From Mycoplasmatota bacterium (GTDB lineage: Bacteria; Bacillota_I; Bacilli_A; Izemoplasmatales; Hujiaoplasmataceae): a stretch of 44,200 bases of DNA. Below, piece after piece: positions 8,873 through 26,209 of the stretch; within the stretch, counting starts at the first letter, position 1; each line of letters starts with the position of its first letter. A program made the position numbers and the translations under genes. A model generated the notes under the pieces. The model saw only the letters and a program-made list of their open reading frames with translations, was not told where the DNA came from and did not search any database. Where the stretch lies: assembly GCA_016342455.1 (NCBI GenBank), contig JAEIOE010000015.1, positions 1 through 44,200 of the forward strand. Reading direction: 5' to 3'.

Positions 8873-10972
8873 TTGTTAAAAAGTAAATATGTTTGGAAAA
8901 CAAAAGTAGATGGTCTTGTTCCTAATGATGAGATATTTACAACAATACTTAAAAACAGAGATATTGATGATTATAAAAGTTACTTTTCTTTAGGAGGAGA
9001 ATCATTGATTGACCCTTATAAATTAAACGATATGCAAGTTGCTAGGGATCGTATTTTTTTAGCAATTGAAAGAAAAGAAAAAATCATTGTCTTTGGAGAT
9101 TATGACTGTGATGGAATTTGTTCTATATCGCTTCTATATCGTTCTTTAAAGCAATTAGACGCAGATGTGTATTATGACTTACCAAATCGCTTTAGGGATG
9201 GGTACGGTCTAAATATGCGTGCAGTAGAAGAAATTAAAGAAGCAGGAATAAAACTTGTAATCACAGTAGACAATGGTGTAAGTTGTATTAAAGAAGTGGC
9301 AGCTTTAAACGAAGCAGGAATAGATACTATTATTACAGACCATCATGAATTTGGAGACACTTTACCATCTGCACTTGCAATTCTTCATACGCAATTAAGT
9401 GATGCCTATGAATTTAAAGATATCGCTGGAGTTATGGTTGCCTTTAAATTAGCGCAAGCCTTAATCGGTGAAAAAGCAAATGAGTATTATGATTTAGCAA
9501 TGATTGGAACCTTAGCGGATTTAATGCCGTTAAAGAATGAAAATCAAGCAATGGTGAACCTAGGTTTAAAACAAATGAAGAATACTACTAATTTAGGACT
9601 TAAAAAATTAATTGAGTTTTCTAATTTAGATATTATTAACGTTACAGCTATTTCTTTTAAAATAGCACCTAAAATTAATAGTAGTGGACGTTTAGGGAAA
9701 GCCTTAGAAGCGGTGAAGCTTTTAGTGGCTGATGAATATAAAGATGTAAATGAACTGATTTTAAAAATAGAGAAAAACCATGCTTCTAGGAAGAAATTCA
9801 CTGAAGAATCATTTAAGCTTTGTGAACAATTTGTAAATGCTGATGACCAAGTAATCGTAATAGCTCATGAAGGATTGCACGAAGGTGTTATTGGTATCTG
9901 TGCCCAAAAGATTGTTGAGAAGTATCAAAGGTCTGCTTTAATACTTACCTTAGATTCTGAGGGTATCGGAAAAGGCTCAATGCGTTCATTTGGAGATCAA
10001 AATATCTTAGATATGCTTCATGCAAATAAAGAATATTTATTAAGGTATGGAGGTCACTCTCAAGCGGCGGGACTTCAAATCAAAGAAGAAAACATTGATG
10101 CTTTAAAAATAGGGTTAAATTCAATGTCTTTTGATGGAGTAGATCCTGTATTGAATTGTGATATGGCTTTAGACCTTTGTAACATTAAAATTGATACTAT
10201 TCAAAAAATTCAAGATCATTCTTTCTTTACAGCGATGTACTTATTTAATGGTTTAGTTGTTAGTAAAAAACAAATTCTTGGTGGGAAACATACCAAATTA
10301 ATTCTTGATTGTCATGGAATGAAATTTGATGCACTACACTTTAATAGTTTAGAGTATTATCATTCTTTAGAAAATGGAGATCATATTAATGTAGTTGCTG
10401 GATTGAATGTAAATAACTACAGAAATCAAAAGAAAATACAATTAATGATTAAGGATGTATCATGTCCTAACCTTCAAGTATTGGATATGAGAGAATCAAA
10501 AGATTACAATAATGATGTGAAATGGGTCTTTAATGATTTTTGGGAAATTAACGATTCTATCCTACTAGAAAACGACCTTGAAACTTTGATAATGGATCAT
10601 TACAATACAAAAACAATAATAATTGGTCCTAAGAAAACAAAGATCAACTTAAATAAACTGGTTTATAAGCCAGAACTTGGTAAAATATACCAAATGTTAA
10701 AAGAAATTCATGAATTTAAGCTAGACCTCTTATTAAGACGTCTAGAATATGATAAACTAATACTTAAATATGCGATTAAAATCTTTTTTGAACTAGATTT
10801 AATCTATAAACAAGAAGATTTCTATGTTGTAAGAGAAGATGCTTTAAAAACAGACTTACAAAATTCTCCAACTTATGTTAAATTAGAAGGAGTGAAAAAA
10901 CAACTTGATTTCTTATATCAAGATTATGTTTCTCATATTAGGACCTACTTTAAAAAACAAATGGAGGAATAA
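8873..10972 (+). CDS. recJ: Single-stranded-DNA-specific exonuclease RecJ
   Basis: RecJ degrades single-stranded DNA 5' to 3' in recombination and repair. The 699-aa protein carries the DHH-family motifs GDYDCDG (75-81) and TDHHEFG with D156-H157-H158, the INSSGRLG segment, and the DHHA1 motif GGHSQAAG beginning at G393. A Bacillota-type C-terminal extension follows, ending in repeated Leu/Lys-rich helices. The start is TTG: no ATG or GTG is in frame near the N-terminus, and MLKSKYVWK matches the usual RecJ beginning. The ribosome site GTGGAG ends only 2 bases before the TTG, unusually close, so initiation may be weak. The order recJ-apt-rel-dtd is that of Bacillus. Confidence 0.93.
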   Translation: MLKSKYVWKTKVDGLVPNDEIFTTILKNRDIDDYKSYFSLGGESLIDPYKLNDMQVARDRIFLAIERKEKIIVFGDYDCDGICSISLLYRSLKQLDADVYYDLPNRFRDGYGLNMRAVEEIKEAGIKLVITVDNGVSCIKEVAALNEAGIDTIITDHHEFGDTLPSALAILHTQLSDAYEFKDIAGVMVAFKLAQALIGEKANEYYDLAMIGTLADLMPLKNENQAMVNLGLKQMKNTTNLGLKKLIEFSNLDIINVTAISFKIAPKINSSGRLGKALEAVKLLVADEYKDVNELILKIEKNHASRKKFTEESFKLCEQFVNADDQVIVIAHEGLHEGVIGICAQKIVEKYQRSALILTLDSEGIGKGSMRSFGDQNILDMLHANKEYLLRYGGHSQAAGLQIKEENIDALKIGLNSMSFDGVDPVLNCDMALDLCNIKIDTIQKIQDHSFFTAMYLFNGLVVSKKQILGGKHTKLILDCHGMKFDALHFNSLEYYHSLENGDHINVVAGLNVNNYRNQKKIQLMIKDVSCPNLQVLDMRESKDYNNDVKWVFNDFWEINDSILLENDLETLIMDHYNTKTIIIGPKKTKINLNKLVYKPELGKIYQMLKEIHEFKLDLLLRRLEYDKLILKYAIKIFFELDLIYKQEDFYVVREDALKTDLQNSPTYVKLEGVKKQLDFLYQDYVSHIRTYFKKQMEE

Positions 10973-22936: not shown

Positions 22937-22965
22937 TTGACAAGTTTAGATGTGAATGCTATAAT
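22937..22965 (+). promoter_or_regulatory. Consensus promoter of the tetR-ABC exporter operon
   Basis: TTGACA (22937-22942), a 17-base spacer and TATAAT (22960-22965), with a TG extension (TGCTATAAT). This is the best sigma-A promoter in the window, as expected for a strong promoter held off by a repressor. Confidence 0.92.
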
Positions 22966-22972
22966 TCAATTA

Positions 22973-22986
22973 TGACAACCGTGTCA
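22973..22986 (+). promoter_or_regulatory. Operator-like palindrome at the transcription start
   Basis: TGACA-ACCG-TGTCA is a 5-4-5 inverted repeat starting 7 bases after the -10 box, covering the expected +1. Its place between a consensus promoter and a TetR-family gene suggests autorepression. The repeat is short for a TetR operator, so the true site may be longer or imperfect. Confidence 0.5.
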
Positions 22987-23019
22987 CATCATTAAATATT
23001 TCTAGATGGAGGTGATAGT

Positions 23020-23643
23020 ATTCCTAAAAAAACATTTATAAACTTAGACAAGGAAAAACAGAATCGCATTATTGAATGTGCATTTGATGAATTTGCGACT
23101 ACAGATTTCTCACACGCCAAATTATCAAATATTATTAAAAACGCCAAAATACCTAGAGGTAGTCTATATCAGTATTTTGAAGACAAGACTGACTTATACT
23201 TATATCTTATTGATTTAACTGCAAAAGAGAAAATGGAGTATATGAAAGACGATTTTAATAATCCGATGGATTTACCATTTCTTGATTTATTTAAAAAGAT
23301 GTATATCTCAGGAATTCAGTTTGCCGCAAACAATCCAAAAATGGTTTCTATGTTTAGTCATCTTTTAGCTAATAAAGGTGAGATATTTGATAAAGTTATG
23401 AAAAATAACTTCGATGTAGCGCTTGATATATATTGTAAAATGATTGATAGAGACAAATCACTTGGCAGAATAAGAAAATCGATAGATACAAAGGTATTAG
23501 CTCAATTGGTTATTGATATGACTATTAATGTTTCAGTGAATGAAATGAGCGATAGCAAGGAATCATTTGATTTTGATAAGATGTATCAAAAAATAGAGCA
23601 AATAGTTAATATAATTGAACATGGTGTAACGGAGGAAAAATAA
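23020..23643 (+). CDS. TetR-family transcriptional regulator with an apparent ATT start
   Basis: This is a repressor for the ABC exporter genes that follow. Standard start codons would give only a 136-aa fragment from ATG 23233, without the DNA-binding domain. The frame stays open upstream and encodes a textbook TetR N-terminus: PKKTFINLDKEKQNRIIE, then the helix-turn-helix with KLSNIIKNAKIPRGSLYQYF. No ATG, GTG or TTG exists between the upstream in-frame TAA (22993) and that region. ATT at 23020 is 7 bases after GGAGG of a perfect GGAGGTGAT (23008-23016). I therefore place the start there, giving 207 aa. AUU starts are rare and sensitive to IF3, so low expression is likely. The C-terminal ligand domain is not assignable. 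It ends just before the ATPase gene. Confidence 0.85.
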   Translation: MPKKTFINLDKEKQNRIIECAFDEFATTDFSHAKLSNIIKNAKIPRGSLYQYFEDKTDLYLYLIDLTAKEKMEYMKDDFNNPMDLPFLDLFKKMYISGIQFAANNPKMVSMFSHLLANKGEIFDKVMKNNFDVALDIYCKMIDRDKSLGRIRKSIDTKVLAQLVIDMTINVSVNEMSDSKESFDFDKMYQKIEQIVNIIEHGVTEEK

Positions 23644-23644
23644 T

Positions 23645-24508
23645 ATGTTTAAAGTGGAAGATTTAAAATTTAAATATCCCAATAATAAAGAAGATGTCAT
23701 CAGAGGGATTAATTTTGAAATAAAAGAAGGTGAAATCTTTGGATTCTTAGGCCCATCAGGTGCTGGGAAGAGTACCACTCAAAAGATTTTGATTAAAATT
23801 CTAGAGGACTTTAGAGGAAAAATCAGTTATAACGGTATAGACATTACAGAGTATGGCAATGAATTCTATGAAGAAATAGGCGTTTCATTTGAAATGCCAA
23901 TCCATTTCTCTAAAATGACTTGCATGGAAAATATTAATTTTTTCCTACAACTATATAAGAACAACGCGGATTGTGAAGCCTTATTAAAAAGAGTTGGCTT
24001 ATGGGAAGACAGAGATAAAATGGTTGGTGAATTCTCTAAGGGAATGAAAATTAGATTAAATATCGTGAGAGCCTTACTAAACGAGCCTAAAATGCTTTTC
24101 TTAGATGAGCCAACAAATGGCTTAGATCCAACAAATGCAATGATTCTAAAAGATATGATTAAAGAATTCAGAAAAGATGGAGGTACTGTTTTCATTACCT
24201 CTCATATCATGTCTGATATTGATCAGTTATGTGATCGAGTTGCTTTTATTGTAGAAGGTCAAATAAAAGAAATAGACACACCAAGAAACTTAAAGATTCG
24301 TTATGGAAATAGAACCTTAAAATTAGAGTACAAAGAAGATGGTAAATCAGTTTTAAAAGAATTCCCAATGGATGATATCGGTAAGAACGATGAATTCCTT
24401 ACACTTTTACAAACAAAAGAAGTAGAAACAATTCATAGTGGAGAAACAACTTTAGAGGATATCTTCATTAAAGTTACAGGAGTAAGTTTAAAAGATGAAT
24501 CTGAATAG
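23645..24508 (+). CDS. ABC exporter, ATP-binding protein
   Basis: A 287-aa ABC ATPase powering the two permeases encoded next. Walker A is GPSGAGKST (36-44), the signature motif is the variant FSKGMKIRL, Walker B is MLFLDEPTNGLDP and the switch histidine is in TSHIMSD. At the Q-loop it has IGVSFEMP, with Glu where Gln is usual; I recall similar IGVSFE loops in fluoroquinolone-export-type ATPases (Rv2688c-like), which also come with two permease genes. The C-terminal extension (about 220-287) is that of drug or lipid exporters. GGAGG precedes the ATG. The coding end overlaps the first permease gene by 14 bases. The substrate is unknown. Confidence 0.9.
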   Translation: MFKVEDLKFKYPNNKEDVIRGINFEIKEGEIFGFLGPSGAGKSTTQKILIKILEDFRGKISYNGIDITEYGNEFYEEIGVSFEMPIHFSKMTCMENINFFLQLYKNNADCEALLKRVGLWEDRDKMVGEFSKGMKIRLNIVRALLNEPKMLFLDEPTNGLDPTNAMILKDMIKEFRKDGGTVFITSHIMSDIDQLCDRVAFIVEGQIKEIDTPRNLKIRYGNRTLKLEYKEDGKSVLKEFPMDDIGKNDEFLTLLQTKEVETIHSGETTLEDIFIKVTGVSLKDESE

Positions 24509-25232
24509 ACTTTGGGTTTTAGTAAAAGGGGAATTATCAAGACTGAACAAATATAATGTAACTTCCATTAGCATTCTAATTGCGATCATGTGGAGTATTA
24601 TACTTTTCTTCGTTGATGAAGTAGCATTAGCTTCACTATTACCATTAATCTTGATGTTAGATGCAACTTTGATGAGTGTGATGTATATTGGTTCAGTTAT
24701 GTTCTTTGAAAAGAGCGAATCAACTATTTCAACTATGCTAGTTACACCATCGACCAGTTCTGAATTAGTATTATCAAAAGTACTAGCAAATACCATTCAC
24801 AATATTTTTTCATCCGCTCTAATCATTATTGCTTTCTTTTTTATCAAGCATGTTGAATTCAATTGGTTCTTAATCTTTTTAGGAATCTTTGCGGCTACTG
24901 CATTTCATACCATTGCAGGCTTATATTTAGCGTACTTTCAAAAGAATTTTACAGGAATGCTTGTGAATATTATGATTTTAGCTTTTGTTTTATTAATTCC
25001 AACAGCGCTATATGAAATTGGAATCTTAACAGCTGATTTTTGGAAATATTTACTATTAATCAACCCAATACAGGCTGCCGCTGAAGTAATTGGTGGAGCA
25101 TTTACAGGATATGTATTTACTTATGTATACTATATAAGTTTGGGATACATGATTATTGGAGGTTTATTAGTATATCGATTACTTGTATTACCTAAATTCC
25201 ATGATTATGCAATTAAGCAAAGTGGGGTGTAA
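24495..25232 (+). CDS. ABC-2 type exporter permease (first)
   Basis: A 245-aa membrane protein with about six helices, starting with a short amphipathic N-terminus (RLWVLVKGELSRLNKY) typical of ABC-2 permeases. Between helices 2 and 3 lies a conserved cytoplasmic stretch (FFEKSESTISTMLVTPSTSSELVLSKV), the coupling region seen in the ABC-2 family. Its start lies within the ATPase gene, so translation is coupled. It is one of a heteromeric pair with the next gene. The arrangement ATPase-permease-permease with TetR resembles drug-efflux operons, but no substrate can be read from the sequence. Confidence 0.85.
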   Translation: MNLNRLWVLVKGELSRLNKYNVTSISILIAIMWSIILFFVDEVALASLLPLILMLDATLMSVMYIGSVMFFEKSESTISTMLVTPSTSSELVLSKVLANTIHNIFSSALIIIAFFFIKHVEFNWFLIFLGIFAATAFHTIAGLYLAYFQKNFTGMLVNIMILAFVLLIPTALYEIGILTADFWKYLLLINPIQAAAEVIGGAFTGYVFTYVYYISLGYMIIGGLLVYRLLVLPKFHDYAIKQSGV

Positions 25233-25234
25233 AG

Positions 25235-25957
25235 ATGTTAAAAACAGTTTTAAAAGCAGAATTACGCAATATTTCTCGTGACAAAATGTATATTTTCTTC
25301 TTTGTTTTTCCATTTGTTTTGGGAATAGCAGGATATTTTCTAATTCCTTATATAGAAGAACAAACAGCACCAGGAAATCCGGCTGCACAAATTGTTGCGA
25401 TGTTCTTAATCTTAATGACAGGTTATATTTTTGGAGCTGTAACAGGTTTTACCTTGTTGGATGATAAAGACGACAACGTCTTAATGAGTCTTAAAATTAC
25501 ACCAATTGATGTAAGAGCGTATGTAATCTTAAAATTAGTTATTAGTTATATTTTTGGTTTTATCGCAACACTTATTTTAACTTTAACAACGAACTTTTTA
25601 CCGGACACTAGCTTTTGGAATATATTGCTTATCGCATCTATCGGAGCGATGCAAGGTCCAGGGGTAGCTATGATTGTAAATTCCTTTGCGAAAAACAAAG
25701 TAGAAGGATTTGTTATTATGAAGATGTCTGGTCTGTTATTGATTGTTCCAGTACTAGCGTTCTTTATCGCTAATTGGCAAGAAGTATTCTTAATCTTTGC
25801 TCCAGGGTTTTGGCCTGGACGTATGATTCAAATGGAAATTTTGCCAACAATAGATACAAACTTTACGTTTATAATCTACTTCATCTTTGGAGTAATATAT
25901 AATATGGTGTTCTTAACACTATTAATGAAATTTTATGCAAAAAGAGCGAATTTATAA
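25235..25957 (+). CDS. ABC-2 type exporter permease (second)
   Basis: A 240-aa membrane protein with about six helices and the same plan as the preceding permease: an N-terminal LKAELRNISRDK, a coupling loop after helix 2 (DDKDDNVLMSLKITPIDVRAYVILKL) and a helix rich in Gly/Ala (SIGAMQGPGVAMIV). It begins 2 bases after the first permease. The two are similar in layout but clearly diverged, so they probably form a heterodimer with the shared ATPase. It most resembles permeases annotated as fluoroquinolone-type exporters, by memory only. Confidence 0.85.
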   Translation: MLKTVLKAELRNISRDKMYIFFFVFPFVLGIAGYFLIPYIEEQTAPGNPAAQIVAMFLILMTGYIFGAVTGFTLLDDKDDNVLMSLKITPIDVRAYVILKLVISYIFGFIATLILTLTTNFLPDTSFWNILLIASIGAMQGPGVAMIVNSFAKNKVEGFVIMKMSGLLLIVPVLAFFIANWQEVFLIFAPGFWPGRMIQMEILPTIDTNFTFIIYFIFGVIYNMVFLTLLMKFYAKRANL

Positions 25958-25973
25958 AAATAGGAGGTAAATT

Positions 25974-26165
25974 ATGTTCTGGAAATATTTCTTTATTATT
26001 TATGGTATTCTATGTCTTTTCATTGGATTACTAAAACCACCATTTATTTTCAATATGTCTAAGTTTAAAACAATGGAAAAAATGTTTGGTGGCAGAGGCA
26101 GAGTAGTCATATTCGTACTAGTCTGGGGATTGGCTTCCTTAGCTGTGGGACTTTGGGTATTCTAA
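25974..26165 (+). CDS. Small membrane protein (63 aa) ending the exporter operon
   Basis: I do not recognise the family. Two membrane helices (about 4-22 and 43-62) are joined by a basic loop containing NMSKFKTMEKMFGGRGR. A strong AGGAGG lies before the ATG and the gene follows the second permease by 16 bases, ahead of the operon terminator, so it is clearly expressed with the exporter. A role as an accessory subunit is plausible from position only. Confidence 0.75.
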   Translation: MFWKYFFIIYGILCLFIGLLKPPFIFNMSKFKTMEKMFGGRGRVVIFVLVWGLASLAVGLWVF

Positions 26166-26178
26166 TTTAAGAAACTTT

Positions 26179-26209
26179 GGGCTTATTCTTTGATAAGCCC
26201 TTTAGTTTG
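26179..26209 (+). terminator. Terminator of the exporter operon
   Basis: GGGCTTAT (26179-26186), loop TCTTTG, ATAAGCCC (26193-26200), then TTTAGTTTG. The 8-bp stem is strong. Flanking AAACT/AGTTT can extend it. Confidence 0.85.

Follow-up and report, generated by a model that had tools for sequence, protein, structure and literature searches.

Where does the gene of a TetR-family repressor begin when no ATG, GTG or TTG precedes its DNA-binding domain, and what would a start codon such as AUU mean for a repressor that heads the operon of an ABC exporter? The question is raised by a stretch of 44,200 nucleotides from a Mycoplasmatota bacterium (contig JAEIOE010000015.1), which we call the window.

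Start codon and product of the repressor gene

After the TAA at 22993-22995, the codons in frame with the repressor read ATA TTT CTA GAT GGA GGT GAT AGT ATT CCT AAA. The features of this region are as follows.

23008..23016, + strand: extended Shine-Dalgarno sequence GGAGGTGAT, read from the sequence
23020..23022, + strand: ATT start codon; shared by four genomes of the genus, with ATG, TTG, ATC or ATT at the same codon in orthologues
23020..23643, + strand: TetR-family repressor, 207 residues from the ATT (Pfam TetR_N, PDB relatives, structure model)
23233..23235, + strand: first in-frame ATG (codon 72), the start of a conventional gene call, 3' of the DNA-binding domain (ORF listing)

The GGAGG of the Shine-Dalgarno sequence lies at 23008-23012 and leaves a spacer of 7 nt to the ATT at 23020. 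The 16S rRNA usually ends in ATCACCTCC, which is complementary to GGAGGTGAT. A search of the window's assembly for the 16S 3' end did not find it; in another member of the family whose genome is complete, this end reads GCGGCTGGATCACCTCC and pairs with GGAGGTGAT over nine bases. The TetR_N domain (PF00440, 30.3 bits against a curated cut-off of 24) covers residues 17-62 counted from the ATT, and a gene call that begins at 23233 therefore lacks the helix-turn-helix entirely. These results bear out a preliminary description of the sequence, which had placed the start at the ATT 7 nt after GGAGG, had put the helix-turn-helix entirely upstream of the ATG at 23233, had seen no ATG, GTG or TTG in frame between the upstream TAA and the domain (the earliest is indeed at 23233), and had noted a nine-base match to the 16S tail. 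Folding of the start region gave no RNA structure better than that of shuffled sequences (z scores of 0.22 and 1.24), and we therefore rejected a structure that conceals the start.

The AlphaFold2 model of the repressor is all-helical, with eleven helices and a mean pLDDT of 83.9. From residue 1, the N-terminus aligns with that of PDB entry 3vok (MPKSTYFSL), in which residue 1 is a methionine; the alignment is limited to residues 1-77 when a profile is used and to residues 1-73 with a single sequence. We take 3vok to be HrtR of Lactococcus lactis, and the two repressors have an N-terminus of the same type. HrtR is autoregulated and has an exporter under its control (PMC7858072). HrtR senses heme and controls HrtBA, and its chain in 3vok starts with Met, whereas the window gene starts with ATT. 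As only the N-terminal part aligns with 3vok, we rejected the identification of the window repressor as HrtR. As for an adjacent exporter of the HrtBA type, the neighbours in the window match ABC_tran and drrA-like models and, weakly, ABC-2 models.

The start codon in relatives

Alignment of relatives had been proposed as the check on the ATT and its Shine-Dalgarno sequence, and both turned out to be conserved. We examined four further genomes of the genus, and three of them carry an orthologue of the repressor, 50-54% identical to the window protein and downstream of the same RluD-like gene. With the window included, the aligned codon is ATT in 4/4 genomes carrying the gene. In the three orthologues GGGGG or GGAGG precedes it at a distance of 7, 7 and 8 nt, and the bases of the spacer differ while the ATT is constant. 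None of the eight other invariant isoleucine columns of the four proteins keeps a single codon throughout, and among all 72 internal invariant columns only 10 have the same codon in all four. The constancy of the ATT while internal isoleucine codons drifted argues that it is held as a start codon. Related paralogues found in the genus genomes start with ATG. A miscalled ATG, or a decaying gene that has lost its start, has next to no probability: the genomes of the genus are indeed fragmented assemblies of 80-240 contigs, but all four show the same codon, no reading frame is disrupted, and both the palindrome and the Shine-Dalgarno sequence are conserved. We rejected assembly error and pseudogene on the agreement of the three other genomes with the window.

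Beyond the genus, exactly this codon is ATG in all eleven orthologues from two sister genera, and the start site is thereby fixed independently. A second family contributes 14 genes, of which three have ATT at this position, two have ATC, three have TTG and six have ATG. Together, the orthologues form a clade of 29 genes (SH-aLRT 93) with AUU or AUC in 9, UUG in 3 and AUG in 17, so that 12/29 have a non-AUG start. AUU or AUC is found in 9/29 members of the clade and in 2/76 other members of the family (Fisher p = 1.2e-4, uncorrected for kinship). On a tree of repressor and ATPase, AUU/AUC needs 4 changes against an average of 8.1 for shuffled labels, although kinship alone also clusters. Sister genes on this tree differ as ATC/ATT and as ATC/TTG, which suggests that the codon itself is exchanged more readily than its strength class. 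The pairing energy of the Shine-Dalgarno sequence is -16.1 kcal/mol for non-ATG genes versus -13.0 kcal/mol for ATG genes (p = 0.002, exploratory and uncorrected for kinship); it looks as if the stronger pairing compensates for the weaker start.

It is very improbable that translation begins upstream at another codon and that the ATT is an ordinary internal isoleucine codon. An in-frame ATG does lie 5' of the start in four orthologues: 15-18 nt upstream in L007 and L008, and at a distance of 6 nt, which leaves only 2 nt to GGAGG, in L066 and L070. The latter are two of the nine AUU/AUC genes, and their AUU or AUC start is less certain; some of the four may start elsewhere. However, these candidates lie at varying distances, overlap or abut the Shine-Dalgarno sequence and are not conserved, and the sister-genus orthologues have ATG at this very codon. 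For the window gene and L006, no canonical start upstream in frame could explain the conserved N-terminus, since neither has an ATG, GTG or TTG before the stop codon. We rejected the upstream start because it is not conserved and lacks a proper Shine-Dalgarno sequence of its own. The reading that the ATT at 23020 is the real and conserved start of the repressor gene is strongly supported by sequence comparison.

Similar starts were also seen in more distant genes. In another genus of the order, the distant TetR paralogue L141 (G048:C16, - strand) has GGAGGTGAG followed by ATT at the corresponding codon, and its sole in-frame alternative is a GTG inside the Shine-Dalgarno sequence. L023, a related TetR gene at position 1040 of the Spirochaetales contig JAGLYY010000428.1, has ATC at the start position, preceded by AAAGGAGGTGA, and an in-frame TGA lies 9 nt 5' of the ATC; it is one of the 2/76 AUU/AUC members outside the clade.

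Promoter, exporter operon and rarity of AUU starts

The surroundings of the repressor gene contain the following features.

22937..22965, + strand: sigma-A type promoter, TTGACA-17 nt-TATAAT, 12/12 consensus with TG before the -10 (promoter match)
22973..22986, + strand: palindrome TGACAACCGTGTCA, a putative TetR operator located at the expected transcription start (TGAC-N6-GTCA in orthologues; predicted binding site)
23645..24508, + strand: ATPase of the ABC transporter, whose first base is 2 nt past the repressor stop (Pfam ABC_tran; conserved adjacency)
24495..25232, + strand: ABC-2 type permease 1 (FLQE3_permease and ABC2_membrane_3, weak and both below cut-off; conserved in orthologous loci)
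25235..25957, + strand: ABC-2 type permease 2 (weak Pfam ABC2_membrane_3, below cut-off)
25974..26165, + strand: hydrophobic ORF of 63 aa, perhaps the operon's final gene (ORF only)
26179..26200, + strand: terminator-like hairpin after the operon (sequence)

The preliminary description had the start right and missed the upstream operator and the perfect promoter. The palindrome TGAC-N6-GTCA is present 5' of 29/29 orthologues. In 27 of the 28 orthologous loci whose contig reaches the ATPase, the ATPase starts -16 to +10 nt from the repressor stop; the exception is L077, with a distance of 194 nt because the repressor frame ends early there. At this locus (G061:C3) the remainder of the repressor matches in another open frame, and it may be frameshifted or misassembled. 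Permease 1 comes next in 27/28 loci, and at L043 the contig ends before it. The ORF between permease 2 and the hairpin gave no family match in the profile search. TetR paralogues of the same order (L057-L062 and L124-L147), nearly all with ATG starts, have similar TGACA-type palindromes, which in some of them adjoin the -35 instead of the transcription start.

A screen for ATT, ATC or ATA preceded by a Shine-Dalgarno sequence and lying 5' of any canonical start covered 351 ORFs of at least 90 codons in 407,930 bases (about 17% of the genome, sampled in stretches). It returned the repressor gene, infC and one false positive, an ATT 26 codons 5' of an ATG that is apparently the true start. With infC as the only other such gene in 408 kb, the genome does not appear generally lax about start codons, and we rejected a genome-wide habit of AUU starts for the stretches sampled. 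The infC gene of this genome (L163, - strand) has its ATT at position 9030 behind GGAGG. Among the members of the family whose infC upstream region was read (L079-L107), this genome included, infC appears in nearly all to start with ATT or ATC behind a GGAGG-like sequence. A strict DNA pattern (GGAGG, ATH and the codons of PxxTFxNL) found this gene alone in 392 sampled genomes. As the pattern is narrow, many of these genomes are small and the other genomes with ATT or ATC lie outside the sample, this result limits a wider spread in the phylum and does not exclude it.

A probable weak start in a putatively self-repressed operon

We consider it likely that an AUU start behind a strong Shine-Dalgarno sequence, self-repression and a weak start that sets the ratio of repressor to exporter together explain this locus. 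The extended Shine-Dalgarno sequence would guide translation of the repressor from the AUU at 23020, and the repressor would bind the palindrome at the transcription start and thereby repress its own operon, including the ABC exporter. A near-cognate start would give little repressor per mRNA compared with the exporter. In a self-repressed operon, weaker translation of the repressor would result in more operon mRNA and thus in more exporter. By our own algebra for the strongly repressed limit, R would scale as k^(1/(n+1)) and mRNA as k^(-n/(n+1)); with a Hill coefficient of n = 2, a tenfold weaker start would lower the repressor about 2-fold and raise the exporter about 5-fold. The weak start would in this way set the repressor:exporter ratio and the basal level of export. 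In S. aureus reporters in poor medium, AUU and AUA starts gave about 10% of the output of AUG (PMC13009471). The likeliest effect of the weak start is a limited output of repressor and a shifted repressor:exporter ratio. That it keeps the repressor scarce, as had been proposed from the sequence, is a reasonable reading, since AUU, AUC and UUG recur in this gene and the S. aureus reporters (PMC13009471) point the same way; probably the repressor is kept scarce relative to the pump. The weakness is not essential, as the same operon serves two sister genera well with AUG at this codon. Only tentatively do we suggest that in this self-repressed exporter operon the weak start is a recurrent design under selection, which across the order (probably Izemoplasmatales) would keep the strength class (AUU, AUC, UUG) and not the codon; it would in this way tune the repressor:exporter ratio and perhaps couple export to IF3.

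The main rival to such a selected start is near-neutral drift. The start would be real and unselected, and AUU, AUC and UUG would come and go because start strength hardly matters when self-repression and a strong Shine-Dalgarno sequence buffer the repressor level. We think this unlikely, although by our own reasoning self-repression would buffer the repressor level, and genus g28 has AUG and non-AUG members side by side. As paralogues with a similar palindrome keep AUG, such drift would have to be peculiar to this gene. Against it, the ATT of the window's genus has outlasted a divergence that scrambled all eight internal invariant isoleucine codons, and AUU/AUC is concentrated in one clade, with the reservation about kinship made above. 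The link between IF3 and exporter expression that had been proposed from the sequence is only plausible. An explanation built on it, in which the AUU makes repressor synthesis report IF3 activity so that export follows the translation state, is in our view quite improbable. It agrees with the infC gene of the same genome, likewise ATT behind GGAGG, and with the discrimination of IF3 against AUU in E. coli (PMC9410913). In the S. aureus study, the near-cognate start of ccpN responded to growth medium, whereas the AUU start of cvfC1 was without a medium effect (PMC13009471). The orthologues of the window repressor also have UUG and AUG versions, which speaks against such a role of IF3.

The gene of translation factor IF3, infC, is the textbook AUU gene, and to our knowledge few natural AUU or AUC starts are known outside it. 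Like the window gene, infC has its AUU or AUC behind GGAGG; its own product regulates it by discriminating between start codons, whereas an effect of IF3 on the window gene would be indirect. Besides infC, the AUU genes on record include E. coli pcnB (cited in PMC9410913). In pcnB the AUU limits translation, as it probably does in the window gene; pcnB differs in being neither a transcription factor nor part of a self-repressed exporter operon. In S. aureus, ccpN (AUA) and cvfC1 (AUU) also have conserved near-cognate starts and strong extended Shine-Dalgarno sequences, with an output of about 10% of AUG in poor medium, and ccpN, like the window gene, encodes a transcriptional repressor. Their proteins differ from the window repressor. 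The start usage of ccpN is conserved as far as B. subtilis, and the section consulted reports no orthologues of it with AUG (PMC13009471), whereas AUG, UUG, AUU and AUC alternate in the window's orthologue, which heads an exporter operon. As to its near-cognate start, the window case belongs with infC, pcnB and ccpN/cvfC1. A search of open-licence papers for AUU or ATT starts in repressors found no TetR case, and within this limited search a self-repressed exporter operon together with an AUG/UUG/AUU/AUC series in one orthologue is not described.

Here the conserved AUU sits in a transcription factor. Gene callers limited to ATG, GTG and TTG truncate such repressors and drop the DNA-binding domain, and similar cases may therefore hide in public annotation. 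The AUG, UUG, AUU and AUC versions of one orthologue offer a natural series in which selection on start-codon strength can be tested.
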